A DNA stretch of 64,000 nt from Craspedostauros australis (Eukaryota > Bacillariophyta > Bacillariophyceae > Mastogloiales > Achnanthaceae). The stretch covers positions 1,426,001 through 1,490,000 of the forward strand of contig JAMXDE010000015.1 of NCBI GenBank assembly GCA_026770025.1. Direction: 5' to 3'. Below, piece after piece: positions 41,961 to 58,647 of the stretch (the first letter of the stretch is position 1; each line of letters opens with the position of its first letter). A program made the translations under genes and the position numbers. Under the pieces are notes generated by a model. The model was not told the DNA's origin. It ran no database searches and saw nothing but the letters and a program-made list of their open reading frames with translations.

Positions 41961-43916
41961 CTACTCCTTCGCAATGCTCTCCTTCTCGAAGATCATCAAG
42001 CACTCGATGTGCCTGGTTTGTGGGAACAGGTCGAAGGGTAGAATCTTCGTGATCGCATACCCCGCCTTCACGATGCCTTCGGAATCGCGGGCCTGCGTCG
42101 TGGGATCGCAGGACATGTAGATGATACGTTGCGGCGCAAAGTCGTACAGCTGCTTCAAAAAGTCTTCACTGCAGCCCTTGCGGGGCGGGTCCAACACGAT
42201 GGCAGTGCGGTCGTTGGGGAAGTCGTCGGACAGAACATCGAAGATAGCTTCGGCGGACGCGGCGCGGAATTCGCAGTTGGTGACGTTGTTGCGCTGGGCG
42301 TTTTGGGTGGCCTCCTCGATGGCCTGGTTGTTGATCTCGATGCCGACGACGGTATCAAAATGTTGCGATGCCGACAATGCGAAGAGGCCGGAGCCGCAGT
42401 AGCAATCGGCCAGATGAGTCAATGATGTTCCTTCGGCGGTGGCGGCGTCGTCGGCATCCTGAGTGGATACCACAGGAGCTGTCGCATACTTCAATACCTG
42501 CTCCACCATCAACGGAAGGACGTAGTAGTTGTTTTGAAAGAAGTTGCCGGCGCGGTATCGAAAGTCCAGCGACCCGACGGTGGTCGTCAGGTATTCGTTG
42601 TTGTCGCTTTCGATGTACTCGTCGTTGAGATTGCCCTGGCGGAACAGCAAGGTGGCGCCTTTCTTCTTTTTGCCAGGCGGCGGACTGTTCAACAGACTCT
42701 CCCGCGCCCTTTCGTACGCCACGTTGACTTCGGGCGTGCCGATGGGACAGCGCGGGACGTCGACGATCTGGCGCACGCTGGACTTCTGGAAGCCAATCGC
42801 CGTGATGACGGGGACATCTGTTGCGAAACTGTGATCGTCGTCGTCATCGTTGTCTTTGGTGTCGACGTTCTTGCGTCCTCTGCGACTTTTGGATGGATTC
42901 TGATAGTGCGGTGTCAGCTTGGATCGGTACCCGAAGACTTCATCCGTTCCCAAGCACGGTGACACATGGACATCCGTGATGCCGTACTGCTTCAAGCCAT
43001 CTTGCACGAAGCGCTGCTTCCAATCGCGCTGCGCGCCGATGCTCATGTGCTGCAGTTGGCATCCACCGCAGGTCCCGTAGAGAGAGCACTTCGGTTCGAT
43101 CCGATCCGGCGATGATTGCAAGACCTGCACGAGATCCGCCTCGCTGTAATTGTTGAAGTTCCGAAAGATACGCAACCGCACGCGTTCGCCGGGGATGACG
43201 CCCGGCACCATGACGACCCAGTTCGTTGTTTGCACGGTGGTCCTGTCGTCGTCTGCTTCCGTAGACGCCGATGATGAATCGACACTGCTATCATTTGGTG
43301 CTGCTATCAGACTGCTCCGCTCTTCTGATTTCTTGCTATCACCGCCGCCACCACGCGGACGCCGTCCTCCCTTCTTCTTCTTATGAGCATCACGCTGTTC
43401 CTGCGTGAATTGAATCGGAACACGAGCAATGCCCATTCCACGATTCGTGAGAGTCTCAATCTCCACATCGATCTCCTCGTGGTACTCGAATGGGAATGGT
43501 ATGAATTTGGCTGGTCGTTTGAAGGCAGGTGGCGTCGTTGTTGGTGCGTCTGTTTCTGTTGTTGCGGCTGGCTGATTGGGGCCATTGGTGATATCTGAAC
43601 TCTCCGTTGCTGTCATTTGCAATCCTGTCACGTGAAAATGCCGCAATGGTGTTGCTGTTGTTGACGTTGGCGTTGTGGGTGTGGGTGTGGATGTGAACAA
43701 CGATGAAATCATGGATCGCTGCTGCTGCTGCTGTTGCTGGTACTGATGCTGTCGGTAAGACGTGATCCAGGCATACGCACCGACCTGCCCGTGCCTGAAG
43801 AGCACCGTGGAAAGGAGTAACCTTCCATTGCGTGATGTTGGCATGCCCAATGACACAGACTGTAGGAAAGATGCGACGCAAGACATGGCCAACACGCACA
43901 GAGGTGTGGTTCTCAT
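41961..43916 (-). CDS. TrmA/RumA-type RNA (uracil-5-)-methyltransferase
   Basis: 651 aa from the ATG at 43916. It transfers a methyl group from S-adenosylmethionine to C5 of a uridine in tRNA or rRNA. The N terminus (MRTTPLCVLAMSCVASFLQS) looks like a signal or bipartite organelle-targeting sequence, followed by a Gln/Thr-rich linker. A TRAM-like OB fold follows (EEIDVEIETLTNRGMGIARV), interrupted by a Lys/Gly- and Ser-rich insertion. Iron-sulfur cysteines are in CSLYGTCGGCQLQHM, with a fourth probably in DVPRCPIGTPEV. The SAM-binding domain has DCYCGSGLFALSAS and VVGIEINNQAIEEA, then LDPPRKGC, and MSCDPTTQARD with the catalytic Cys. All key motifs are present. Chloroplast or mitochondrial location is inferred. 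It is transcribed divergently from the displaced DJ-1 gene. Confidence 0.93.
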   Translation of the reverse strand: MRTTPLCVLAMSCVASFLQSVSLGMPTSRNGRLLLSTVLFRHGQVGAYAWITSYRQHQYQQQQQQQRSMISSLFTSTPTPTTPTSTTATPLRHFHVTGLQMTATESSDITNGPNQPAATTETDAPTTTPPAFKRPAKFIPFPFEYHEEIDVEIETLTNRGMGIARVPIQFTQEQRDAHKKKKGGRRPRGGGGDSKKSEERSSLIAAPNDSSVDSSSASTEADDDRTTVQTTNWVVMVPGVIPGERVRLRIFRNFNNYSEADLVQVLQSSPDRIEPKCSLYGTCGGCQLQHMSIGAQRDWKQRFVQDGLKQYGITDVHVSPCLGTDEVFGYRSKLTPHYQNPSKSRRGRKNVDTKDNDDDDDHSFATDVPVITAIGFQKSSVRQIVDVPRCPIGTPEVNVAYERARESLLNSPPPGKKKKGATLLFRQGNLNDEYIESDNNEYLTTTVGSLDFRYRAGNFFQNNYYVLPLMVEQVLKYATAPVVSTQDADDAATAEGTSLTHLADCYCGSGLFALSASQHFDTVVGIEINNQAIEEATQNAQRNNVTNCEFRAASAEAIFDVLSDDFPNDRTAIVLDPPRKGCSEDFLKQLYDFAPQRIIYMSCDPTTQARDSEGIVKAGYAITKILPFDLFPQTRHIECLMIFEKESIAKE

Positions 43917-44453
43917 GATGTACAATTGCGCTTGCAAGTCACTTGGTTAGCTGCTTGTGAATGATGAAAGAACTGTGCTTGGGAGGATGCCGAAGAGGGT
44001 GTGGATGATGATGTCGGCGATCGTGATGTTGACTGTGGTGATAGACACGAGTTGATTGATGGCGTATCCTTCCACATTTCTCGTGATGGGTTTTCTTGGT
44101 TGGCTGATTGCGTGAAATCAACGAATCCGTATGTATGGACGGACAATACTAATGTCTATTAGTTATTGGAGGATTGAGGCAAAATGCATTTATTCATAAT
44201 AAATATATACCATCCGTGAACACGCGTGTCCACAAAGATCGCTTCCAAATTCACGTTTACACATTTTGCACAATGAATCATCTTTCCTGTTCTTGAGCCC
44301 AAGCAGACAGAAGCAACGGTCCACCAACTCGCTGACCCGAAGACCACATCATCACGTCACACGATACCGTTTCGTAGGTGTATCCTTTTGGTTCCTCAAA
44401 TCTCTTGTTCTCCATCAGCCGAATTGATTCCTCATAAAATCAGAAACGAAACC
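43917..44453. promoter_or_regulatory. Former divergent promoter region, cut off from the DJ-1 gene by the Copia insertion
   Basis: The methyltransferase gene reads left from 43916. The next host gene to the right begins at 57737, but only 44 host bases (57693 excluded duplicates aside, 57694-57736) remain attached to it. The rest of its upstream DNA is this stretch. It includes an AATAAATATATACC patch at about 44198-44211. The right edge AAACC (44449-44453) is the left copy of the Copia target duplication. Confidence 0.65.
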
Positions 44454-44591
44454 TGTTGGTATACGGTCGAAGGCCAGACGGAGCAGCAAATGAACCCCTG
44501 TTCACAGCCTCAGCAGAGACAACAGAGACGAGTCATAATAACTTCACATCACACACACACACACTACTCGTATCGTCTCCCGATCATCACA
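44454..44591 (+). repeat. Copia 5' LTR
   Basis: 138 bp, TGTTGGTATACGG..GATCATCACA. Contains a CA run. Identical to the 3' LTR once the nested insertion is skipped. Confidence 0.95.
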
Positions 44592-44601
44592 GGTTATGAG
44601 G
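44592..44601 (+). promoter_or_regulatory. Copia primer-binding site, tRNA-Met anticodon-loop type
   Basis: GGTTATGAGG directly abuts the LTR. Its complement, CCTCATAACC, is the anticodon loop and adjoining stem of a methionine tRNA (CAT anticodon). Priming from a tRNA-Met cut in the anticodon loop is known for Drosophila copia and some relatives. A TATATAAG motif lies shortly downstream (44616-44623). Confidence 0.7.
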
Positions 44602-44730
44602 AAATACGCTTATACTATATAAGACAATCCCCATTGCTTCGTCACCCTCTCTGTATTTTGGAAATCCCCATCCAAACGCAGCTCATCTCATCTCTCTCTT
44701 TGCTCCACGCCTCGTTCCATCACCGCCATC

Positions 44731-46389
44731 ATGCCCGCCAGTGACAACCCCAACAAAACTCCGTTCCACGACACAGAGGAACTCTTCCGTCGCCTCAATT
44801 GGACGTGGCTCGCTGACTTCTCCAAGCATTCCAAAATCGCCTCTGACGGTGAATTCGCTGACTTCCTCGATACCTCTGAAGAGGAGTTCGAGGCTGTCTT
44901 GGACGGCTGGAAGTCTGGCTCCATCACTCGTTGTTTCGGGCTCCGCAATCTTCGCGCGTACGCGGAAGCGAACCCTGATTTTGACGCGTGGTTCACCACA
45001 CTGGAACGCCCCGTGCTCCGTGCATTCGGCAAGGCCAAAAAGCCTCCCGCTATTCGCGACAAGCTTCCCCCTGAAGCCCATGGTGCCTCTGGAGCCCTTG
45101 CGTCGGGTGGTACCACCGATGATGCCCATTCCTCCGAACGTGGTGATACATCTACACCCCGCGGTGACGTGCCAGTCGCAACCGCCGGTCGTGGTGTTGA
45201 CACCAGCGATGCCCCTCTTGATGTTGGTGAAGAACCAGCGCCTGCCGTCGACTTCATCACCGGCTCTGGCCTTACCTACGCCATGGCCCGCAACAACCCT
45301 GCAGTCCTCCCTCATTTCCACTTCAAGGAGGTTCCCATGGTCACAGAGCCCTCGTATGCCGCAATTGGATACTGGCAGCGCTGGGAGCTGAAGCTTGCTG
45401 GGGACGCACCCGCTGGAGTACTCAAGTGGTACACACAGCTCCAGGCTGAGGCTGCTGGTGTGGACATCCACATCTGTCCGCTTTCCGCGTTCAGTCCGCA
45501 GTGCTCCATCATTCCGCGCAACGCTCCACGCGAACGGGTCATCCGTGCCGGCGAGTGGCTGAACAAGAAGTTGCAACAGAAGGACATCCTCGATCTGGAC
45601 GACCCTGCCATCTCCCTATTCTATTCTGGGACTTTCGGCATGTCGCCACACCATCTGTCATCCTTCCTTTTCCTTCATCAAGTGCTCTCGGACGCATACA
45701 TGCGTGTTGCCAACACCGTGAGCCAAGCGCCTGAGTATGGCGATTCGCAAGACGTCATCAAGTTCGCCACGGCGTTGTTGGAATTCCAACAAACCGAGAG
45801 CGTCGTTCACCGTCGCACGATCACTGATGTGGAGCTATCCCGCCGATTCCTCGAAGGTCTTCGCTCTCACCACATGCCTGTGGAGCACCACATCACGTCT
45901 CTGTCCCTGGTGCCAGGCAACAAGCGCGTGCCCCCTCACCTACACGTGTCGGCTCTTGCCCGTACCATCAGAGGAGATCCCACTGCCTCAACGTCCAATA
46001 TTGGCCACCGTGTGCAAACACGTTCGTCTGGGAAGTCTGGTGGCGATGGCAAGCGTGGCGAGCGCAAGCGGTCCGAGTTTTATCAACCGGACAAGGATGC
46101 ATTCTGCTCCGCGTGCCACCGCAAGGGACATCATGCGCGCAGCTGCCTTCCATGGGCACGTGATCTGCGTTTCGTTGAGCTCCGCGAGTCCGAACCTGAC
46201 CTTGCTGCGAAGGTTCTCAAGACGTACAAGGAGGTCTACTCCAGCGAGCGTGCAAGCACAGTTGCCAGGGCTGTCGCTCTTGTCCATCATGGACGTGACT
46301 CATTGAGCGATGACGGCGACAACAGCAGCGACGACGAGCGTACAGCGCAGATCCTTTTCCAGGATTTTGTTCTTGCCGGCCGGAAGTAG
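44731..46389 (+). CDS. gag: Copia Gag-like polyprotein
   Basis: 552-aa open frame starting 139 bp after the LTR (CGCCATCATG). It forms the nucleocapsid-type protein of the element. A capsid-like helical region occupies the middle, followed by a basic stretch and one zinc knuckle, CSACHRKGHHARSC (C-x2-C-x4-H-x4-C), then an acidic Ser/Asp tail. It looks whole. The pol frame starts 47 bp after its stop in another frame, so separate ORFs are used. How pol is expressed is not shown by the sequence. Confidence 0.9.
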   Translation: MPASDNPNKTPFHDTEELFRRLNWTWLADFSKHSKIASDGEFADFLDTSEEEFEAVLDGWKSGSITRCFGLRNLRAYAEANPDFDAWFTTLERPVLRAFGKAKKPPAIRDKLPPEAHGASGALASGGTTDDAHSSERGDTSTPRGDVPVATAGRGVDTSDAPLDVGEEPAPAVDFITGSGLTYAMARNNPAVLPHFHFKEVPMVTEPSYAAIGYWQRWELKLAGDAPAGVLKWYTQLQAEAAGVDIHICPLSAFSPQCSIIPRNAPRERVIRAGEWLNKKLQQKDILDLDDPAISLFYSGTFGMSPHHLSSFLFLHQVLSDAYMRVANTVSQAPEYGDSQDVIKFATALLEFQQTESVVHRRTITDVELSRRFLEGLRSHHMPVEHHITSLSLVPGNKRVPPHLHVSALARTIRGDPTASTSNIGHRVQTRSSGKSGGDGKRGERKRSEFYQPDKDAFCSACHRKGHHARSCLPWARDLRFVELRESEPDLAAKVLKTYKEVYSSERASTVARAVALVHHGRDSLSDDGDNSSDDERTAQILFQDFVLAGRK

Positions 46390-46436
46390 AGCAGCTCTCC
46401 GGTGAACGGCTACTACCCGTTGCTCGCCCATGCGGG

Positions 46437-49400
46437 ATGCAAACAGGCACGCACACCAGCGTTGCATCTCCGCTACAAACTGCCTCAACCCAAGTGCAGT
46501 TCACAGAGCCGGATCGTTTCATGACGTCAACGACGGTCCCGCTCCGTGCAAATGCACTTGCAGGGTCTCGCGACAGCGAATGGCGCCAACGAATTCACGG
46601 TCAGTGTGATCTAGGTGCCAACGTTTGCGCGACTCCACATGCGCGTCTCCTCAGTGACTATACCGCGTTTACTACTCCTTCCAGCCTTGAGGCAGCGGAC
46701 TCGTCTTCGCCTGCTATGGAGTGCCCGGGAGAAGGGTACATGCGGATATCATGTGGTGGCGGCGCGCATCTTTTGGTGCACACTCTTCTGTGCCCACGAC
46801 TGGCTGACACGCTTGTGTCGCCACAGTCTATCATCCGACAACGTGACAACCCATACAACAGCTTCGGCATTGAATCCACCCGACACAATGCTCACATCGT
46901 CTTCAAGTCTCCAGATAACAATCTTCGAGTGCCGCTGTACATTCGCAACGGTCTGTACTTCTTCGGAGGCGTTCGTCCGCGTGCCATGACCTTGAGACAG
47001 GCCTCGCCTACGCTCCTGTCGGAACTTTGGCATCTACGACTTGGACATGTGGGCATGGCGCAGCTGCAGAAGCTTTCCAAGTGCTCCACCGGTATTCCGG
47101 CATCTGTTACACGGCACATTCACCCACTTCGACACTGTGACACGTGCAGCAAGGCAGGATATCAACATGCCACACGCGGCCCCAATGACACGGCTACAGC
47201 CAACGTCGCTGGCGCTAGGTTTCACGTCGACTTTGGGTTCATGAGGGCCACTGACGATGCGTACGGCCAGCGCAAGAAGTCCCAAAGCGCTCAACGGGTC
47301 ATCCACTCCGTCGATGGGTTTTGCGCGTACCTTCTTGTGGTCGATGCGTGTACATGCTATGTGTGGGTGTTTCTTACCAAGGACAAATCCCCACCCATCA
47401 TGGCTGTACGACAGACCCTGACTATTTTTGGGCGCCGCGAGGGCTATCGTGCGGTTCGTGTCGACTTGGGCGGTGAGCTGGCCAGGTCCAGTCAGTTTGG
47501 TACCATGGTCCAGGAATGTGGATACAACGTTGAACCTACTGGAGCAGATTGCGCATGGATGAATGGGAAAGTGGAACGGCTGAACAAGACCTTTGGCACC
47601 ATGGTGAGGGCGCTACTTTACTCGTCCGGGCTCACACCTGACTTCTGGTCCAAGGCGTTGACTCATGCAGTGTACCTCAAGAATCGACTTCATCATTCTA
47701 CACTTGGAAGAACGCCGTATGAGGCTCAACATGGTGTCGCGCCAGACCTCAGTCATCTCCGTGTGTTTGGTGCACGAGTCACTGTGAAGAAGCCTGGCAA
47801 GGCTGCCGCAAAGCTCGACGTTCATACATACGATGGCATCTTCGTTGGGCACACAGCTACGGCGTCAGTGCATGAGTACTACGATATCAACTCTGGAAGA
47901 TTCAAGCGGGCTGGCAACATTGTCTTTGATGAGGCACACTACATGTCTTCCAACAGACCTCCAGGGCCAGCGTTGCTGTACGATCTGGGACTCCCCACAC
48001 CTGCTGTGGAACCAACGCCAAGCAAGATCATTACCAAGCCTGTGTACCCCACCATCGTCACAAGGCATGCCAAGATTCCGGCGACGGCGTGTGCGATACC
48101 GCTTCCGTTGGGAGACATCCTCGATCATTCGCATGTCCATGCCTCTGCTGCAAGGTGCACAGAAACTGGACAAGTCGATATCGTGCATGTTGACACGACC
48201 GATGAACCGTTTGGGTATCCATTCAGCCAAAGTGTGGACGTGCGTGGTACGGACGGCCTCCTTGGGTTCGAGTTTCGGTATGATGAGCAACGGCATCGGC
48301 TTCAGCTTCAACAGTGCAAGTCAGGTCAACCGGCTGCACGTATCACGCGATGGCGGTCCAGGCTGCGCAAGGCGCACCTCATTTCAATTCAAGGTCAACA
48401 GGTGCATACAGCCATGGACGCGCGGCAAGCCATACAGGCCTTGCGTGAACAACGTGTTACCACTGCAGAGTTTGTGTTCGCATTCGATGACGTTCGCAAC
48501 AATCTGTCTCAACACGGGGTCCCGCAGATGTACTTCGATCAGATGAAACATATCCGAGATATCATCGAGACGTCCACTCCCCAAGCACATGCCACCAGTG
48601 TTGCCAATGCACCAGTCAAGCTCACTCGACGAATGCTTCTACAGCAAGATGACTGGGAACAGTGGCAGGCCGCGGAATTCAAGCAGCTGGACCAGTACGA
48701 TGCGCAGCAAATGTTTGGCGATCCTGTTCCAGCTCCCGCAGACGCAGCCATCTTCAATTGGGTCTGGGTCTACGTGGTCAAGACACATGAGAATAATCGG
48801 AAGAAGGCACGCGCTGTTTGCGATGGCTCTACCAGGGGAGGACATGCTCGAATATTCGGACACACCTATGCGGCTACGCCTGATTTGACGGAGTTCAGGA
48901 TTCTCCTTGGCATTGCTGCAATCCAACAGCTCAAGGTGTACAGCTCGGATGTCACAAACGCTTTTGCAGAAGCCCCAGCTGGCGAACAACGATACTTCAT
49001 GAAAGTGGATGAGCCGTATCAAGCGTGGTGGAAACAGAAACATGGCACCACTATTCCTCGCGGCCACGTCATCCCGGTCAACAAGAACCTTCAAGGTCAT
49101 CCTGAAGCACCTCGCCTCTGGAGCAAGCACATCACTGGCATCCTACAACAAATCGGGTTCACTTCGACAACCCATGCTCCTTGTTTGTACACTGGGGCCA
49201 TTGGTCACAACAAGATCTACGTGCTACGTCAAGTGGATGATTTTGCAGTCGCTGCTCCATCACAGAGTGTCTTCGATACATTCTGCGACATGCTCGACAA
49301 GCGCCTCTTCCAGCCCATCACTCGACAAGGACTCATGGTACACTATAACGGACTCGATGTTGATCAAGCTCGGCGATTCGTGCGCATACATTGCACATCT

Positions 49401-50354
49401 TACGTGGACAAGATGCTGGAGCGCAACAAGTGGCAGAACATGCGGCACACTCACAGATTGCCTATGCTGTCGGACAACTCGTATGTCAAGACTTTGGACA
49501 ATGCTGACGTTCCAAGCGATGACAAGGAGCGAGCCGCTCTGGCCACAAGGTTCAAGTTTGGGTACCGCCAAGCCATCGGTGAGCTCATATGGGCTATGAT
49601 ATCATGCCGTCCTGACATTTCTTTTCCCGTTGTCAAACTCTCTCAATTCTCAAACAATCCAGGCGAAGCTCACTTCGAAGCTGTCAAGTTCCTCATGCGG
49701 TATGTCGCGAGCACCAGAGACTATGGCATAACATACTGGCGGCCAGCGTCACTTGTCGATCTTCCCGATGTGCCGGCCCCATCCAAGCTGTCACCACATG
49801 GCGATTCTACGCACGACGTCAATGCCACGCGCCAGCTCGAGGCTTCTACGCTATATGGGTACGTCGACGCCGATTGGGGTGTTGATATACGTCACCGCCG
49901 GTCCGTGTCAGGCATCGTCATGATGTTTGCAGGTGGTGCCATCGCATGGAAGACCAGGGTTCAGCCCACGGTCTCCATGAGCAGCACAGAGGCGGAATTT
50001 GTTGCAGCCAGCGATGCCGGCAAGATGGCTCTTTGGCTGCGGTCGATTCTCCATAAAGTTGGCGTGACACAACCGTTCGCAACCCCCATCTTCGAGGATA
50101 ATCGCGGTGCCCGGCTGATGGCCAGTGCCAGTCAGCCCACTCGGAACTCAAGACACATAGCCATCCGAGAATTCGCGGTCCTCGATTGGGTCGAGACAGA
50201 CCTTGTCGCCTATCCAGAGGTCTCCTCAGAGATGAACGCATGTGATATCTGCACGAAACAGACACCCGTGGTCCTGTTCTTTCGGCACGTTGACCTAGTT
50301 ATGGGTCGCAACGTGCCCTCATATGTAAACGACTACAGGAGTCCGGATTTGTAA
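46437..50354 (+). CDS. pol: Copia Pol polyprotein (protease, integrase, reverse transcriptase, RNase H)
   Basis: 1305-aa open frame that looks whole. In order: aspartic protease motif CDLGANVCATP (near residue 58); integrase zinc-binding LRLGHVG..HCDTC (about 47030-47145); integrase core with DACTCYVWVFL, RVDLGGELA and a Glu in MNGKVERLNKTFG (about 47280-47620); a GKVxVFG-like adaptor region; reverse transcriptase with VYSSDVTNAFAEA and RQVDDFAV (about 48650-49420); RNase H with YVDADWG and SSTEAEFVAASD (about 49860-50080). The gene order and DLGAN protease motif suit diatom CoDi-type Copia elements. Confidence 0.93.
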   Translation: MQTGTHTSVASPLQTASTQVQFTEPDRFMTSTTVPLRANALAGSRDSEWRQRIHGQCDLGANVCATPHARLLSDYTAFTTPSSLEAADSSSPAMECPGEGYMRISCGGGAHLLVHTLLCPRLADTLVSPQSIIRQRDNPYNSFGIESTRHNAHIVFKSPDNNLRVPLYIRNGLYFFGGVRPRAMTLRQASPTLLSELWHLRLGHVGMAQLQKLSKCSTGIPASVTRHIHPLRHCDTCSKAGYQHATRGPNDTATANVAGARFHVDFGFMRATDDAYGQRKKSQSAQRVIHSVDGFCAYLLVVDACTCYVWVFLTKDKSPPIMAVRQTLTIFGRREGYRAVRVDLGGELARSSQFGTMVQECGYNVEPTGADCAWMNGKVERLNKTFGTMVRALLYSSGLTPDFWSKALTHAVYLKNRLHHSTLGRTPYEAQHGVAPDLSHLRVFGARVTVKKPGKAAAKLDVHTYDGIFVGHTATASVHEYYDINSGRFKRAGNIVFDEAHYMSSNRPPGPALLYDLGLPTPAVEPTPSKIITKPVYPTIVTRHAKIPATACAIPLPLGDILDHSHVHASAARCTETGQVDIVHVDTTDEPFGYPFSQSVDVRGTDGLLGFEFRYDEQRHRLQLQQCKSGQPAARITRWRSRLRKAHLISIQGQQVHTAMDARQAIQALREQRVTTAEFVFAFDDVRNNLSQHGVPQMYFDQMKHIRDIIETSTPQAHATSVANAPVKLTRRMLLQQDDWEQWQAAEFKQLDQYDAQQMFGDPVPAPADAAIFNWVWVYVVKTHENNRKKARAVCDGSTRGGHARIFGHTYAATPDLTEFRILLGIAAIQQLKVYSSDVTNAFAEAPAGEQRYFMKVDEPYQAWWKQKHGTTIPRGHVIPVNKNLQGHPEAPRLWSKHITGILQQIGFTSTTHAPCLYTGAIGHNKIYVLRQVDDFAVAAPSQSVFDTFCDMLDKRLFQPITRQGLMVHYNGLDVDQARRFVRIHCTSYVDKMLERNKWQNMRHTHRLPMLSDNSYVKTLDNADVPSDDKERAALATRFKFGYRQAIGELIWAMISCRPDISFPVVKLSQFSNNPGEAHFEAVKFLMRYVASTRDYGITYWRPASLVDLPDVPAPSKLSPHGDSTHDVNATRQLEASTLYGYVDADWGVDIRHRRSVSGIVMMFAGGAIAWKTRVQPTVSMSSTEAEFVAASDAGKMALWLRSILHKVGVTQPFATPIFEDNRGARLMASASQPTRNSRHIAIREFAVLDWVETDLVAYPEVSSEMNACDICTKQTPVVLFFRHVDLVMGRNVPSYVNDYRSPDL

Positions 50355-50376
50355 CTTCCGCTGACTGCGTCAGCGT

Positions 50377-50385
50377 GGGGGGGGG
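50377..50385 (+). promoter_or_regulatory. Copia polypurine tract
   Basis: Nine Gs directly before the 3' LTR (GCGTGGGGGGGGG/TGTTGG), the expected plus-strand primer position. Confidence 0.85.
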
Positions 50386-50472
50386 TGTTGGTATACGGTC
50401 GAAGGCCAGACGGAGCAGCAAATGAACCCCTGTTCACAGCCTCAGCAGAGACAACAGAGACGAGTCATAATA
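50386..50472 (+). repeat. Copia 3' LTR, first part
   Basis: First 87 bases of the 3' LTR, identical to 44454-44540. It ends in TAATA (50468-50472), the left copy of the duplication made by the Harbinger insertion. Confidence 0.95.
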
Positions 50473-50494
50473 GAGGCCTATCGCATTTCACATT
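50473..50494 (+). repeat. Left terminal inverted repeat of the Harbinger element
   Basis: 22 bp, begins GAGGCCTATCGC, perfect partner of 57611-57632. Confidence 0.95.
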
Positions 50495-52741
50495 CACACC
50501 CCTGTGTTCATGTCACATGTGGCACTCACGTTCGGATTTCACATTGGTACTCGTGACTAGTTCGTGACCTACTCAGAAAGACGACCAACATGACTGAATC
50601 GGCTTCTCTTCTGTAGAATAGAGCTCTAGTTTAGACTGCTCTGATATGAATGCTCCTTGCATGTTATCGCATCACTTGTTGAGACCAAAGGTTGATAGGA
50701 TCATTAATGGGTGTGCTCTGAGTTGCACGCAACGCACATCTCTCTTTCTTCTCGTGGGGGCTTCGTGTTCTGAGATTTTCGCTGCCATCTCTTCTTTCTC
50801 AACTTTGCTACTAACAGAGGTCCGGTAACATATGCGCAAGCACTTTGTCCCTGCTGATTCATAGCTTGTTCAAGGCTCTGTTGCCAATATCGATGACAGA
50901 GACCTCTTGATCACTGTATCATGGAGATGGATCAGCAGTTTGTTGTCCAATAGAAGGTCTCCACGCAGTCTACACAGAACTATTACGATTGCGCGTTGGG
51001 TTGGTTGGAGACCAACAAGGACTTCCGATATGGCAGTCAGGATCTCCAAAAGATGCAAAATGCGCGTTGGTCGAAGTCCCTGGTCGTATCTGACTACACT
51101 AGTCCTCAGAGCATCAGGAACACGCCGCGGATGTTGTATCGGGTGAAATAGGATATGAGCAATGATTCCTCAGCTGGATCATGAAGGGGTCCTTTTCTAT
51201 TTGCGCGCAGATATCATATGTGAAGCTTGCAGGCATATTCGACATCGTAATCGCTCTCTATCGCTCCATGCACCTCTCATTCGGAATGCTAGTTTCATCA
51301 TCACTAGCATCTCAAAAAATATCATTGTCACGACAAGGACGACTCAACATTTCTGCAAATGAAGAGAAATGATTGGCCATTCGTTTCGTTCCAACACGTG
51401 GAAGGTTGGATTGCCGGGACTGCAATGTGAAACTCAATTGTGTTTTTGGCTCCTAAAACGCAATCGAGTTTCACTTTCCGAGGGGGAAGTTCGCATGTTG
51501 CCCCTCTAAAAATGTCATTATCAGGTTATTTTGTACCGGGAGTTGTCGGAAAAAGAGAAAATCACGTTTTTCGTGTCGGAGTCTGTTCACAAATGACAAG
51601 AAACTGCCAGTTGCCAGTTCGCCACACGTGATGGACCGCAATCGATTCGAGATGTTCGACTCATACGACTAGGACAAGAATGCCGAGTTGGTTCACGAGA
51701 GCAATCGATCATCTCTGAGTCCCGCATTGTGGCGTGTGTGGGGATGGGATTTCCTCGCTGCGTGTTTTGGTGTTGCTCATTCTCGTCACACTTTGCTGCG
51801 GTGGTCCACAAAGCGCACTGTCGTCTTGGTTGGCAGAACAAGTCCTTGTCTTCTGGTTTGTTGGCTTGTACTACTATTATATTGAACTCATCAAAAGCCC
51901 ACCAGGGACGATCGAGTATCGTTCCCGACCCCACGCCATTTACCTTCTTGATGATGTGATGCGTTTGATTCCCATCAGTGAGAGTTGCCTGCAGGGTAGA
52001 GTGCAAGGAATCCACCAGCAGTATCGCACGGCAAAAAATCACCACAATGCGAGGTGGCCTGATGACCAACCACCAATCGTCACTCTCCACATCACTATGC
52101 ACTGGGTGTCACTCTCATCCATCTTTGTGCAACATTGATAGCAGCAGACTCAAGGAGTAGCAGCCCAATCGATGTTGATAGAGTATGAATCCTTGTCCCA
52201 TGCAATGATATCAGAGCTGATCACGCGCCGACATGCTCCATTTTGTTGCAACATGCGCAGACCGTGCACGCACACCGCAGCATACTCCCTCTGGAGAGAG
52301 ACAGAGAGAGAGATCGTACCTCCATGGTCGCGTTGTTGAGTCTCGTATCGTTGAATACGAAGCAATGTTGTACACACTCAAGCGAAAGGGGTTCCTCGAT
52401 TGGGTCTCCTTCGCTGCGCTTTGTTCTCGAGTTGACTGTCTGAAGAGCTCACACAATTTTGCGCACGCAGAGTAGTGCAGTACTTTCTCATCGTGCCGCG
52501 CTTACATGCTCGTTGACGTCCTATCCATCCCAGGATTGCTGCATCGTCTCACAGTTTAGGACAAGGTGTGGTGTATCTGGTCAATAGAATAGTTGAGAAT
52601 AGATCTAATGCAATTATAGTATATGAGTGGTGGTGCAGTGCTCTTCTATTTGCCGGATTCGACGCGATTCACTCTCCTGGTTGCTGTTGCAAGATGCGTT
52701 CCAGACTACGAATCCCTCAGTATTGTTGAAACTTGTATAAT
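50495..52741. other. Non-coding left part of the Harbinger element
   Basis: 2.2 kb without a recognisable gene, holding the 3' flank of the transposase. Near 51541-51565 is GGGAGTTGTCGGAAAAAGAG, which resembles the inner side of the right end (reverse complement of about 57573-57600), possibly a transposase-binding sequence or an internal rearrangement. Confidence 0.5.
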
Positions 52742-53862
52742 CTAGTATTGTACTTGGAATAGAGAGTTGCCATGTTCGATTTGAAGCTGGGTTATAGTGA
52801 CAATTGCTTTCATCACATGCTTGTGCAACATCAGGTCATGGCGGAAACGATTCTCCAGGATCTTCCAATTCTTGAAGCGGCCATTCACAGTCTCATGGCG
52901 AGCACGAGCTTGGCTTTTGGCTTGCTTCTCCGCCTCTGTAACAAAATCATCGGATGTTCGGACAGCTTCGTCACCGCGGTATCCACGATCAGCCTCCACC
53001 ATCTCACCATCATCCAAGTACTGTTTCAGCAAAGAGCGAAAGATCTTGAGGTCTGGGTGCCGCCCACAAGCAAACGGACCATTCATCCATACGATATCTC
53101 CCTTTTGGATCGACACAGCGATCTCATATCTGATTCCAGCCGATCGGAACTTGTGCGAATACCACTTGCGATCGAATGGGGTTGGCTCGTTGATCTTGAA
53201 ATCAGTGCCATCAACCGTGACCAGGCATGATCTGTTCAAATCCCCAGAGTATCGGTTTTCCCACAGGATCTTTTCATGGCGACGTCAAAGAGAGACAAGC
53301 AGTGCAAAAGATGTGAGCTTGTTTGTTGCTGAATCAATTGTGAGTGAAATGCATTCCCCTTGGGACTTACCACATCATTTTTCAAATCTGCTACAGCCTT
53401 GATGGCTGACCAGATATGGAGCTTGAGAGTCTTATCCGTGGTCCGAAGGAAGACGCATGCCATGCGAACGGATGGGTAGTGCCGCATGTAGTACAGGGCC
53501 CAAAGGAGATGCTTTGGCTTCAGGTCCCCACGACGTGCTGCAAGTGCCCACAGCACAGAGCAGAGATGAGGCGAAATCCCAAATGCAACGGTAAAGTCCT
53601 CCCCAAATGCACCTGATCGGCATCGTAGATTGGTGATGCACTGGCCAGGGGTGAGAAGGATGTAGCGCGCAAGATCGAGGAAGTCTTGCACGCTGCCGAT
53701 GGAGTACCGATGGTCGTAGGCACCATTCAACATTGGTTGGGTGTTTGCTCGAAGGAAGAAGTTGGAGCTGAAGTGATTGCTGTCCCTGCCTCTCCAAATC
53801 ATGAAGGATCGGCCAACTGACTTGGGAGAATCCGTGTCCAATGATGGGGTTGTCTGCTTCAT
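52742..53862 (-). CDS. PIF/Harbinger transposase (DDE_4 family), two exons
   Basis: Exons 53862-53371 and 53269-52742 join to 339 aa. The intron (53370-53270, 101 bp) has GTAAGT at the donor and AAAAG at the acceptor. Joining restores the family motif across the junction: VADLKNDV/ILWENRYSG. Exon 1 has the helical part (FGISPHLCSVLWAL, HLLWALYYMRHYPS). Exon 2 has the nuclease: TVDGTDFKINEP (Asp184), VEADRGYRGDE (Asp258) and RARHETVNGRFK (Glu290), a complete DDE triad. It cuts and rejoins the element's ends. Length suits the family (usually 340-450 aa). Another short 5' exon cannot be excluded, since frames upstream to 54365 are open but lack motifs. Likely functional. Confidence 0.9.
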
Positions 53863-55084
53863 CTGTTCTCTTCTGTAAATGGTTGCTGGCTTGCACCAGT
53901 AGATGCAGCCACTGGCATGGAGCCATTCGCATCCCTCTGCAGTTGAATCGTTGGAAGCAGAGCATCACGTTGTGTTCGTGGTTTTTGATTGATGTTGGCT
54001 GTGCGATGATGGCGATGCGAAAACCGAAGAGCATGGTTCTGTGGTGACTGGGGTGCCCCAGTTGATGGTGTCCTCCGCCGAGGGGCCGCCTCCGGGAGGG
54101 TTGGATGGTGTTCTTCTTCGTCTGAATTCGACACAGAAGAGAGGAGCAAGAGATGTTGGTGCTTGGCTTGAATCGTCGTTGTGAAGCACCACCCCTGGTT
54201 CGTGTGTCTGCTTCCGTTGCATGTGGCAACGCAAATCAAAGAACAGGCCGATCGGCCAAAGCGCACCTCTGCGATGAGCTGTCCTGCGACGGGGTCAACA
54301 TGCTGTTCGGTGGGACCAACTTCGACACAAGCCAATGACAAGTAGCGTTGAGTACTCCACTCCACACCATTTCAAATCGAGGAGCCAAAAAGGCGTCCGA
54401 CAAGTACGCAATTCGCATCCGACAAGTACACGATTTCCATCCGACAGATACTAAATAGGCAAGAAAATTAACGGTTTAGTAACCGTCGGACTAGAACTTT
54501 AGAGTTGTCGGAGTAGAAATGGCGAACCACAAATTCTGTCTTTTGTTTTCTACGTGAGCTACTACTGACTGTTGCGTAGGAAAGCACACATGAGACTTGT
54601 CGGCGAAAACCAGGTACTTGTCCCCCCAAAAACGAATACCGTCGGTTCCTAAGAATTTCTTGTCGGAGGGTCAATATACAGATTTGAAGACATCATTCCA
54701 AGTGAGCCGTCCAAAGCACATGAAGCTGAGTATGCTCACCAAATCCAACTGAGCTCCCACAAAAAGCAAATTCGACCCACGAGGAAGTTGCATTCCGAAC
54801 AAAACAGGATGATGGCACCTCATGCCCTCATGTACGCACCACAATCCTCCTCATCTGTGCAATACTGTTGATTGAAACAGGCAATGACGAATGTGACAGC
54901 CTGAATGCTTGCCGTAGTCTGGCTGCGTTACTCCTACCTGCGTGCTTGATTTGAATAGACAGCTGGTTGATCGATCGATGATACCATCCCCCAGCATTGG
55001 TCGAGTTGTTTGCAGCGTTGCACTCGCAGTATCTGCTGTAGCAGGGGTGTCCATCACAAGCCCACAATTCAGCTTACCTCCAAG
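53863..55084. promoter_or_regulatory. Divergent promoter region between the two Harbinger genes
   Basis: Transposase reads left, second gene reads right. At 54380-54670 there is a cluster of TCCGACAAG / TTGTCGGA words (for example CCGACAAGTACGC, CCGACAAGTACAC, GTTGTCGGAG, CTTGTCGGCG). Related words occur near both ends of the element (about 51545 and 57590). They may be binding sites of an element-encoded protein. Confidence 0.45.
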
Positions 55085-57211
55085 ATGGCACAAATCCAAG
55101 TTGCTCGAGCTCAAAGGTGGTCACCCGCAGGAGATCACGCTGCTTACATCATCAAAGGTTTCATCTCCAATCCTCCTCGCTTCCAACCAACCAAGGAAGG
55201 CTTCTCGAACTTCTGGGAGTCGCACGTCGAGTGGCACAGTCTCTACAGCCAAAAGAACACGAAGAAGAATTTCCTCAATTGTTGGGCCCGTCTGCTGAAG
55301 TTCCTCGAGAGTGGAAAAGGTGCGTCCGTTTTGTGATGTTGCCTGTTGTGACTATTATTGTGATCGCCGACTGTCCTGACATGTTCGTGAACCAAATCTC
55401 TTCTCACACAGCTCTGATTTGCTTTGCTGTGCACAGGATTTGGATCTGATTTTCGCAAGAGGTGCGGTCTGGATTCCACAGAACGCCTTGCAGAATTGCG
55501 TGAACAACGCGGAATCGACCTGAACTACCGACCAGCACAAGGCGCTGTTAACAACACTGATGCCAATCACCCTCCTGCTGCTGATCTTGCTCGCGGTTCT
55601 TCTTCGGACGACGACGAAAGTTACCTTCCTTCTGTTCATTCTGATCGTCTCGGCTCTGCTGTATCTTCAGACAGCTTGGAGCTCGACCCAGGATTCGTTG
55701 ACGACGATCTCTCTCAAGCTACCCCACCATTCATTATGCCTCGTCGTGGAGTTCAAGGCCCTCGTGGACCCCCTGTCCGAGACGTGAACAAGCCAACACC
55801 TCCTCCTGCCCCCAAGCGCGACGCCACACCCAACGACAAGACCATCGTGGATGCCATGGGCAAGATGGGAATCCGGAGTGCAGATCGCGCCATGAGCCCT
55901 GCACTGGACATGGTCAAGCTCGGATCATTCACTGAACGTGCTTTCGATCCTTTGACAGCTGCGAATGGAACTGGGCGCTACCGTGAGGGGATTCACATGT
56001 TTGTGGTCCTGGACGCAAAGGTAGATCCAGATTCTGTGGCGCTGTCTACGGAGGATGAAGGGTGGACACTGAAGCTGACATACAAGGTACCAAAGATGTA
56101 CTTCACAGCAGAGTGCATCTACGGAGTCTACGGATACGACAAAGGGTTTTCTACAAGCCTTGCGGCGGCTAAAAATTATTTCCAGGATCTCGCTCGGAAG
56201 GTCACCGACGATGCAGGCGAGCTTGTTGTCAGCTGCCAGTTCAGCCTCCCAAGGAAGATTGACAGCCTCTTCCGCAACGTCAAGACCAAGGACCTCGAGG
56301 AACCCAACTTCGAGATCGTGGAGAACTACCTTGGTACCACCACACTGGTGACGTTCTGCTTTTTTCAGGAGAACTTCAATCAGCAGCAGTTCGGGACGGC
56401 TGGTCGTCGTGGCGTCCGAGGCTTGGATGGGATGGTGTACTCCTTCAATCCCATCATGCCTGCGCCCGCCGTCCCGACTGCACAAGGATTTGGCTCCCAC
56501 CCCTTTGGCCATCCTGCTCCAACCCAACCAGGCGGTGGCAGCAGCAACCATCATCCTGCTCCGTTCGGATCTCCGATTCCCAATTCTGGTGGCGGGTTTG
56601 CCAGCCCTGCAGCAGCCACCCAGAATGCTGCCCAGACTGCTGCGCAGACTGCTGCGATCCGCCAGCAGATGGAGCGCGAGGCCGCGGCCCAAGTTGCTCG
56701 AGCGCAAGAGCTAGCTCGCAAGGAACGGGCCGAATGCGAGGCTCTCTTGCGTGCGGCAAAAGAGCGCTCCCAGCTTGATGCTCAGGCCAAGGCCCGAATT
56801 GAGCATGAAGCTCGGGCCCAGTTCGAGGCCATGCGCAACGAAGCTTATGCTCGTGAGCAGCATGCGCAGGCTCGGCTGGCTGAGCTTGAGGCGCAGCTCC
56901 TTCAAGCTCACACCAACGCATCCCTGGCTTCCCACAATCCCAGCGGGTTGCCTGGTGGTGGCGTTCCCGACCCAGTCTGGAGCTCCTCTCAATCCAGCAG
57001 TACTGGGAGCTCCATCCCCACTGTCGAGATGGAGATGACAGCTCTGACAGGCTCTGTGCGCCCCCGCAACGGTGAGGATGCCCCACGTCGTGATGATGTG
57101 CTCCGCCTGAAAGTGGATGAGGTATCAGGCGGAGCTGCAGCAGGAATGCCTGATGGAGTGAATGGCAGTGTTGTGTCTGCCGATGCAACAGGGCACACTG
57201 TGAACGCCTAA
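55085..57211 (+). CDS. Second gene of the Harbinger element, two exons, function unknown
   Basis: Exons 55085-55319 and 55437-57211 join to 669 aa. The intron (55320-55436, 117 bp) is bounded by GTGCGT and GTGCACAG and the junction reads LESGKG/FGSDFRKRCG. Start context is CAAGATGGC. The N-terminal ~100 residues (ending LAELREQRG) are Trp/Phe-rich and helical (QRWSPAGDHAAYII, FSNFWESHVEWHSLYS) and could be a Myb/SANT or trihelix-like DNA-binding part, as found in the partner protein of other Harbingers (inference). The middle holds an alpha/beta region (HMFVVLDAKVDPDSVAL..YFTAECIYGVYGYDK) that I do not recognise. The C-terminal third is Pro/Gly-rich, then an Ala/Glu/Arg coiled coil. It lies between the element's ends, so it travels with it. 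A captured host gene is the alternative. Confidence 0.8.
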
Positions 57212-57610
57212 GTGCAGCGCAACGCAGCACACCGCATCAGCCTGAATGCGTCAACAACAACAACAACAAAATCACCGCATCACCGTGAATGCGTCAACAC
57301 CAGAAACATCACACGAGAAGCAGCAAAGCACAGAAATCACAGACAGAGAGCACTACTCCCCAGAGTAGATCACACAGAATAACAACAACAGCACGAACAA
57401 AACCAAAACAAACACCAAAAAACAACGAAAACAACAGAAACAGAAACACAAAGGAGAGAACTAACTAAGTACTCAATAGTAGTAGGAACAAACAAAGTAC
57501 CATGATGGGTGCAAACCACATATTTATGTCTAATCAAGTACTTAGTCTTGCCAATTCCGACATAAAAAGTAAGCTTTTCTCCTTTTCCGACAACTCCCCG
57601 TGGGACTCCC
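57212..57610. other. Right non-coding end of the Harbinger element
   Basis: CAA- and ACA-rich sequence (57248-57440) follows the stop codon. The last part contains ATTCCGACATAAAAAG and TTTTCCGACAACTCC just inside the right inverted repeat. Confidence 0.6.
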
Positions 57611-57632
57611 AATGTGAAATGCGATAGGCCTC
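57611..57632 (-). repeat. Right terminal inverted repeat of the Harbinger element
   Basis: 22 bp, perfect reverse complement of 50473-50494. Followed by TAATA, the second copy of the target duplication. Confidence 0.95.
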
Positions 57633-57688
57633 TAATAACTTCACATCACACACACACACACTACTCGTATCGTCTCCCGATCATCACA
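57633..57688 (+). repeat. Copia 3' LTR, second part
   Basis: TAATA duplicate (57633-57637) and then the last 51 bases of the LTR, identical to 44541-44591 and ending ATCACA. AAACC (57689-57693) is the right target duplication. Confidence 0.95.
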
Positions 57689-57736
57689 AAACCATTCGAT
57701 CAACAAGTACACAAAGCACCAACAGCAAAGTCACCA

Positions 57737-58647
57737 TGGTCAAGGTGAGTCTCCCTGAACGATGTTGGTGAAGCCGCGTTGGTTGGTCAGTGTTGCGGAC
57801 AAGTGTAGTACGAGCAGGACCAATGACTCCGCATGTGGAAGCAGAATACAACGAAACACAATGGCGGTGCGAGGATCTACACGAATCAACACAGATCATC
57901 CTGCTTCGCTTTGTTGTGATACTGCCCATCATCGTCTCACCTTGCCTCCATGATTTCTGCAACAACCCGCAGATCGTCCTCATCAGCACATCGGCTCCCA
58001 TCCTGAAGGAGACCGAAGAAACCGGCGTCTGGATGGAAGAGATCGCCGCACCGTACTACAAATTCGTCGAGGCCGGATACGAGGTCACCATCGCTTCGCC
58101 TGCTGGCGGTGCCATCCCCGTCGATGCCGGCAGTCTCAGTGATCCCTTCTTCACCGATGCCTCCAAGAAATTCCTGCACGACGCCACCGCCATGGGCAAG
58201 TTCATGCATTCCAAGAAGCTTGAGACGCTCCAATTCCCATCCGACTACGATGCCATCTACATGCCGGGCGGGCACGGATGCTGCGTGGATTTCATCGACA
58301 ATGCGACCCTCAAATCGGCCATCGAGACCATGTACAATGCCGGCAAGATCGTCGCGACGGTCTGTCACGGACCCATCTGCTTGTGCGATTGCGAGACGCC
58401 GGATGGAAAGCCGTTCGTGCAGGGCAAGACGGTGACTGGATTTGCGGATTCGGAAGAAGAGGCCGTGCAGAAGGTCGAGCTGGTGCCGTACCTCATCGAG
58501 ACCAGGTTCAAGGAGCAGGGCGCCAACTATGAAAAGGCCGATGACTGGAATTCCAAGGTCTGCATTGACGGCAACCTCATCACCGGACAGAATCCTCAAT
58601 CGTCGGAGGCTGCCGCGGAAGCCGTTATCAAGGCGCTGGCTGCCTAG
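57737..58647 (+). CDS. DJ-1/PfpI superfamily protein (Hsp31-like glyoxalase III/chaperone type), two exons
   Basis: Exon 1 (57737-57745) codes only MVK. The intron (57746-57972, 227 bp; AAG/GTGAGT and CCCGCAG/ATC) leads to exon 2 (57973-58647), giving 227 aa that begin MVKIVLISTSAP, the expected first strand. Start context is GTCACCATGG. Motifs: ETGVWMEEIAAPYYKF with the conserved Glu, MPGGHGCC, and the nucleophile elbow VATVCHGP with Cys134-His135, then FADSEEEAV, which supplies the acidic partner in Hsp31-like members. The family detoxifies glyoxals or acts as an oxidative-stress chaperone in the cytosol. The length suits the Hsp31 branch. The 3' end of a Copia element sits 43 bp upstream of the ATG, so its native promoter is displaced and expression may now depend on the LTR. 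Confidence 0.93.

Follow-up and report, generated by a model that had tools for sequence, protein, structure and literature searches.

A nested Ty1/Copia-type insertion between an Hsp31-type gene and its former upstream region in the diatom Craspedostauros australis

In the genome of the diatom Craspedostauros australis, a Ty1/Copia-type long terminal repeat (LTR) retrotransposon has separated an Hsp31/glyoxalase-III-type gene from 532 bp of its earlier upstream DNA, leaving 42 bp in front of the start codon, and two DNA transposons have inserted, one within the other, inside the 3′ LTR of this element. The locus lies in the stretch of 64,000 bp analysed here (the window; positions 1,426,001–1,490,000 of contig JAMXDE010000015.1, C13), and matches to its parts were sought in the whole assembly of 74.8 Mb and 90 contigs. 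We think it rather probable that, through this recent Copia insertion and the transposons nested in it, the gene lost most of its promoter and is now transcribed at a reduced level or from a displaced start.

The boundaries of the insertion could be read directly. The element spans positions 44454–57688, opening with TGTTGG at 44454 and closing with ATCACA at 57688, and is bracketed by two copies of AAACC (44449–44453 and 57689–57693). A sequence-only reading of this stretch had claimed these duplicates, the right one ending at 57693, together with the LTR ends, and all were found at those positions. To the left lie 532 bp of host intergenic DNA (43917–44448), which once stood upstream of the Hsp31-type gene, followed by a divergent gene for a tRNA_U5-meth_tr-type methyltransferase (41961–43916, minus strand; Pfam PF05958, E 2e-19) whose in-frame ATG starts at 43916. 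That this DNA now sits beside the methyltransferase gene, 13.2 kb from the Hsp31-type gene, had also been stated and is borne out by the sequence, the inserted block measuring 13,240 bp with the right duplicate included. To the right, host DNA resumes at 57694 and runs to 57735 (plus strand; 19 A, 13 C, 5 G and 5 T, with no ATG). Because the ATG is at 57736, and not at 57737 as first given, 42 host bases remain instead of 43. Before the insertion, the two divergent start codons were 579 bp apart (532 + 5 + 42).

Both the perfect target duplicate and the 5-bp signature that recurs at other copies of the family place the insertion event between the gene and its earlier upstream DNA. We inspected the flanks of 13 LTR sites (12 fetched and the window's own), three of which had one end only. 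At nine of the ten sites where both outer LTR ends were readable, window included, the duplicates were perfect 5-bp copies: AAACC in the window; TGTAG, CTCTT, GTATC (twice), AATTG and CTTCT at other elements; and GTTCA and CAATA at the two solo LTRs seen for the family. The tenth site (C3:2350621–2356739) has unlike LTRs, 81% and 97% identical to that of the window, and no target duplicate; judged by these features, it fits what is expected of a recombinant between two elements.

The inserted element is a Ty1/Copia LTR retrotransposon, having identical LTRs with TG…CA ends, a 5-bp target duplicate and an RVT_2 match after the integrase region. Its 5′ LTR (44454–44591, plus strand, as are the two ORFs and the 3′ LTR) is 138 bp long and is followed by internal sequence that starts GGTTATGAGGAAATACGC. 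A gag-like open reading frame (ORF) of 552 aa (44731–46389) contains one CCHC knuckle and has no Pfam match, and the pol ORF of 1305 aa (46437–50354), in a different frame from gag, matches gag_pre-integrs (residues 194–239), SH3_retrovirus (432–500) and RVT_2 (766–1002), in that order. The placement in Ty1/Copia rests on these two ORFs and on the three pol matches. At E values up to 0.1, pol gave no Pfam integrase-core match; inspection by eye picked out integrase-like, protease-like and RNase-H-like motifs in it. The 3′ LTR is split into its first 87 bp (50386–50472), the last bases of which form the first of two TAATA copies, and its last 51 bp (57638–57688), the sole LTR part that adjoins the gene. 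When these two pieces were rejoined, all 138 positions agreed with the 5′ LTR. In front of the 3′ LTRs stands a G run whose length varies from 8 to at least 20 within the printed bases and which is apparently the polypurine tract.

Identical LTRs suggest that the Copia insertion in the window is young, although zero differences over 138 bp limit LTR divergence merely to an estimated 2% or so. Judged by sequence identity, the family as a whole has young members. The assembly holds at least 41 LTR matches (40 of 78 candidates scored), and the internal region has six other essentially full-length matches of 92–98% identity, the nearest of them, among the matches listed, on C2 (98%). With shorter, broken and more distant relatives included, at least 56 stretches match the internal region (40 of 89 candidates scored). 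Compared with the window, the 5′ LTR showed no substitution in 138 aligned positions in eight of nine copies (A, B, B2, C, D, E, F and G), the CA repeat of F and G being of a different length, and 27 differences in 137 positions in the ninth, H; the 3′ LTR of the C14 copy differs at 2 of 138. In the same eight copies the first 280–1,460 internal bases compared diverge by about 2–9%, the figure for copy C being inflated by one badly aligned bin beside a deletion. The 200 bp that adjoin the LTR diverge by 2–5% in these eight copies at the 5′ end; at the 3′ end, seven copies diverge by 1–2%, C14 by 2.5% and H by 6%. Across the family copies, part of gag evolves fast and the untranslated stretches next to the LTR evolve slowly. 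We dropped LTR hyper-conservation as a separate finding, because the copies are not independent and the adjacent 200 bp are likewise little diverged.

The 3′ LTR is interrupted at its TAATA by 7,160 bp (50473–57632), which the sequence-only reading had taken for a single nested transposon. There are in fact two DNA elements, as revealed by an unbroken sister copy of the outer one (C16:204774–205872; 1,099 bp with 22-bp terminal inverted repeats) and by separate target duplicates. The left arm of the outer element (50473–51538) carries the 22-bp terminal inverted repeat (TIR) GAGGCCTATCGCATTTCACATT and ends with the target of the inner element, CCG, at 51536–51538; its right end of 35 bp (57598–57632) opens with the second CCG. 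The C16 sister matches these arms at 98% over 1,067 bp and at 100% over 35 bp. A second TAATA (57633–57637) completes the 5-bp target duplicate as read; should the TIR extend one base further, the duplicate shrinks to the 3-bp AAT. Among the matches listed, these two copies of the outer element stood alone; their flanks read TAATA/TAATA in the window and TACTA/TACTC on C16, or the 3-bp AAT and ACT with the longer TIR.

The inner element (51539–57597; 6,059 bp) has the TIR GGAGTTGTCGGAAAA, a 3-bp target duplicate, CCG, and an ORF on the minus strand with a DDE_Tnp_4 transposase match (52742–53239; Pfam PF13359, E 2.6e-12). A further ORF of 595 aa (55424–57211, plus strand), without a Pfam match, reads towards the Hsp31-type gene. 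A copy on C10 shares 99.8% identity with the inner element, with one gap and 6 mismatches over 6,063 positions, which suggests that this innermost insertion is young. Transposase, TIRs and a 3-bp target duplicate are shared with the PIF/Harbinger superfamily, of which a TWA target site is typical. By contrast, all ten copies examined here (the window and nine loci; 10 of 24 scored candidates) were flanked by 3-bp CNG duplicates (CTG, CAG or CCG), and because of this CNG target we call the element Harbinger-like. Harbinger-like elements have been reported in Thalassiosira pseudonana by Maumus et al. (2009; PMC2806351).

The gene behind the insertion has an intact reading frame. Splice sites in the sequence predict a short exon 1 (57736–57744, plus strand; MVK) and an exon 2 (57973–58647, plus strand), separated by a 228-bp GT-AG intron (GTGAGT…CAG), and the predicted product of 227 aa has no internal stops. 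It contains a DJ-1_PfpI domain (Pfam, E 6.8e-18). The earlier label "DJ-1 gene" overstates the kinship, because Hsp31/GLX3 chains score far above human DJ-1. The top solved-structure matches, all near full length, were 1u9c (5e-48), 4p5p (1.2e-39), 4lru, a glyoxalase III (1.2e-26), and YDR533c (3.6e-20), the two best chains carrying only the names APC35852 and ThiJ/PfpI family protein, whereas human DJ-1 (2rk3) matched weakly (2.4e-4 over 61 residues). The triad of yeast Hsp31, given as Glu30, Cys138 and His139 in PMC4021431, aligns by eye to Glu, Cys and His in the predicted product. From these matches, we class the gene as Hsp31/glyoxalase-III-type within the DJ-1/PfpI superfamily, in the branch of YDR533c and its kin, in preference to DJ-1 (PARK7) proper. 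Among the findings that would speak against it, the sequence-only reading had named an additional intact copy of the gene whose alignment showed that 44449 and 57694 are not contiguous in empty alleles; the assembly yielded neither such a copy nor an empty allele. The spliced protein matched once at E values up to 10, so that no second copy or near paralogue was found there; the right flank with the gene and the left flank (43600–44448) likewise gave one match each, with no empty allele in the assembly. These single matches fit a collapsed or homozygous locus.

The sequence thus shows that a recently active Ty1/Copia-type element inserted, with duplication of AAACC, into the 579-bp divergent intergenic stretch, 42 bp before the ATG; the outer TIR element then entered its 3′ LTR, and the Harbinger-like element the outer element, an order that follows from the nesting. 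We propose that, on the inserted allele, the Hsp31-type gene would have lost most of its own promoter, and the arrangement makes promoter loss or shift likely. Transcription would fall, or would start anew from the 42-bp remnant, from the 51-bp LTR tail or by read-through from the nested element. The divergent methyltransferase gene, which retains 532 bp upstream, would probably be little affected. Several considerations weigh against this proposal: the 532 bp are the gene's presumed promoter but may instead be used chiefly by the methyltransferase; part of a core promoter could be left if the normal start lies within the last 42 bp; and the living cell may contain a second, uninserted haplotype. 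In the displaced 532 bp, four of seven motifs sought were found, once each (ACGTCA at 44354, TATATA at 44204, ATTGG at 44165 and TAATAA at 44197); we made no use of them, as such short words carry little meaning. No Rfam match was found in the 64-kb window at gathering thresholds.

The two last of these considerations lead to a reading in which the insertion was nearly neutral, because the 42 bp hold both the start site and a minimal core promoter or because the other haplotype is uninserted. The 42 bp are rich in A and C and free of ATG, as a 5′ leader could be, and the gene is intact though no second copy was found in the assembly; moreover, many read-inspected insertions in Maumus et al. 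occupied one haplotype (PMC2806351). Since 42 bp are almost too short for upstream control elements, we hold near-neutrality to be unlikely, if still worth keeping in view. The sequence-only reading had supposed that the LTR or the nested transposon drives or silences the gene, possibly with stress-linked expression. It is quite unlikely, in our judgement, that the LTR itself drives the gene, with the adjoining 56 bp (a TAATAA box restored by the nested duplication, CA repeat and conserved LTR end) serving as a core promoter, possibly a stress-linked one. Of 17 distinct aligned LTR sequences, the older of which are 79–90% identical to the window's, 14 retain CATAATAA, and the LTR end CGTATCGTCTCCCGATCATCACA is unchanged in 12 of the 15 sequences that reach it; there is no ATG between 57620 and 57735, and the 163-bp LTR of the diatom element Blackbeard alone suffices as a nitrate-starvation promoter (PMC2806351), which makes the idea a reasonable one in kind. 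This conservation may, however, stem from integration or reverse transcription, and other LTR stretches are also kept. Direct driving is further weakened because the adjoining 3′ LTR is split: 87 of its 138 bp sit 7.2 kb away, across the 7,160-bp insert, so that 51 bp, or 56 bp with the duplicated TAATA, adjoin the gene, and the nested element altered the bases preceding TAATAA. We regard as a long shot the more elaborate variant in which the outer transposon hit the TAATA box and its duplicate left a 56-bp mini-LTR promoter that drives the Hsp31-type gene, freed from upstream LTR control, in a family that may favour the space before gene starts.

Chromatin marks that silence the young, 13.2-kb mobile block could also have spread over the gene, a prospect that we find very doubtful. 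All LTR elements tested in Phaeodactylum are stated, with the data not shown, to be methylated, and for Blackbeard this was shown by McrPCR (PMC2806351), but the Copia part has no lowered CpG observed/expected ratio (0.96, the value for the window being 0.92). The ratio is 0.81 in the nested part, 0.87 in the left 10 kb and 1.03 in the right 6 kb, and it can tell little about elements as young as these. Near-identical copies of the repeats exist in the assembly, as would be needed for the block to be a chimeric join; since all three nested insertions have matching target duplicates and the uninterrupted C16 sister of the outer element shows the expected empty junction, an assembly artefact is scarcely credible. 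Promoter loss or displacement through the nested Copia insertion is the reading that we prefer.

Sister insertions gave some indication, suggestive at most, of a preference of this Copia family for gene starts. A facing predicted start lay within 500 bp at five of ten sites (expected 1.8–3.1; P 0.011–0.14, according to the coding-score threshold) and within 250 bp at three of ten (expected 0.9–1.6; P 0.048–0.21), where the starts came from a crude codon score and the distances were picked after the sites had been seen. For these two reasons we do not take the preference as established. The copy at C6:2365755–2371818 lies 142 bp, duplicate included, upstream of the start of a transportin-1-like ORF (L037, 562–3576) that reads away from its 5′ LTR; this ORF matches 2qmr (2.5e-119) in an alignment that begins at residue 154, so its true start is uncertain. 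The C15 copy adjoins an ORF that matches DDRGK (1.6e-7, above the Pfam cut-off), the start of which was scored at 147 bp and the first in-frame ATG of which is 258 bp away. The copy at C23:740369 immediately follows a long open frame that contains copia RNase-H-like motifs, and it probably sits inside another element.

Two gene families were observed elsewhere in the assembly. Silicon transporters form a large family, with 88 stretches that reach the cut-off of the Silic_transp profile (PF03842), two of which do so only together with in-frame neighbours; 32 stretches cover at least 480 of the 513 profile positions, and 28 of these 32 are stop-free. The same profile gave a match in one of 14 control genomes, below the cut-off. 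Silicon-transporter copies in diatoms and Parmales are reported to range from 2–3 to more than 30 (PMC13403384). Chlorophyll-binding proteins are also present; when one of them was compared with solved structures, four long multi-domain LHCI chains from one entry ranked first, and the best single-domain match was a fucoxanthin chlorophyll a/c protein (8iwh, 4.9e-32).

For Phaeodactylum, copia insertions confined to one haplotype, insertions near the 5′ ends of genes and the promoter activity of an LTR have already been published (PMC2806351). The present locus is a well-preserved further example of this published kind and by itself changes nothing in present knowledge; our literature search brought up nothing that we recognised as describing it, and we do not claim its absence in print. 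What is special is the nearness to the ATG, the stress-type gene for which no second copy was detected in the assembly, and the triple nest. As the junctions of all three elements can be read, the locus offers a clean test case of whether a host gene can come under the control of short diatom-type LTRs or of their fragments. In the literature on diatom Ty1/copia families (PMC2806351), LTRs measure 153–844 bp (163 bp in Blackbeard), 23 of 26 families have TG/CA ends, and near-identical LTR pairs, insertions inside other mobile elements and haplotype-specific insertions are described, as is a PtC34 insertion 82 bp upstream of a 5′ untranslated region in Phaeodactylum. The element in the window has in common with Blackbeard and the other CoDi Ty1/copia elements its short LTRs, their TG/CA ends, the near-identity of the LTR pair and the closeness to coding sequence. 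It differs from them in that its LTR, at 138 bp, falls below the published range, that it inserted 42 bp from an ATG, and that two DNA transposons, one within the other, interrupt its 3′ LTR.

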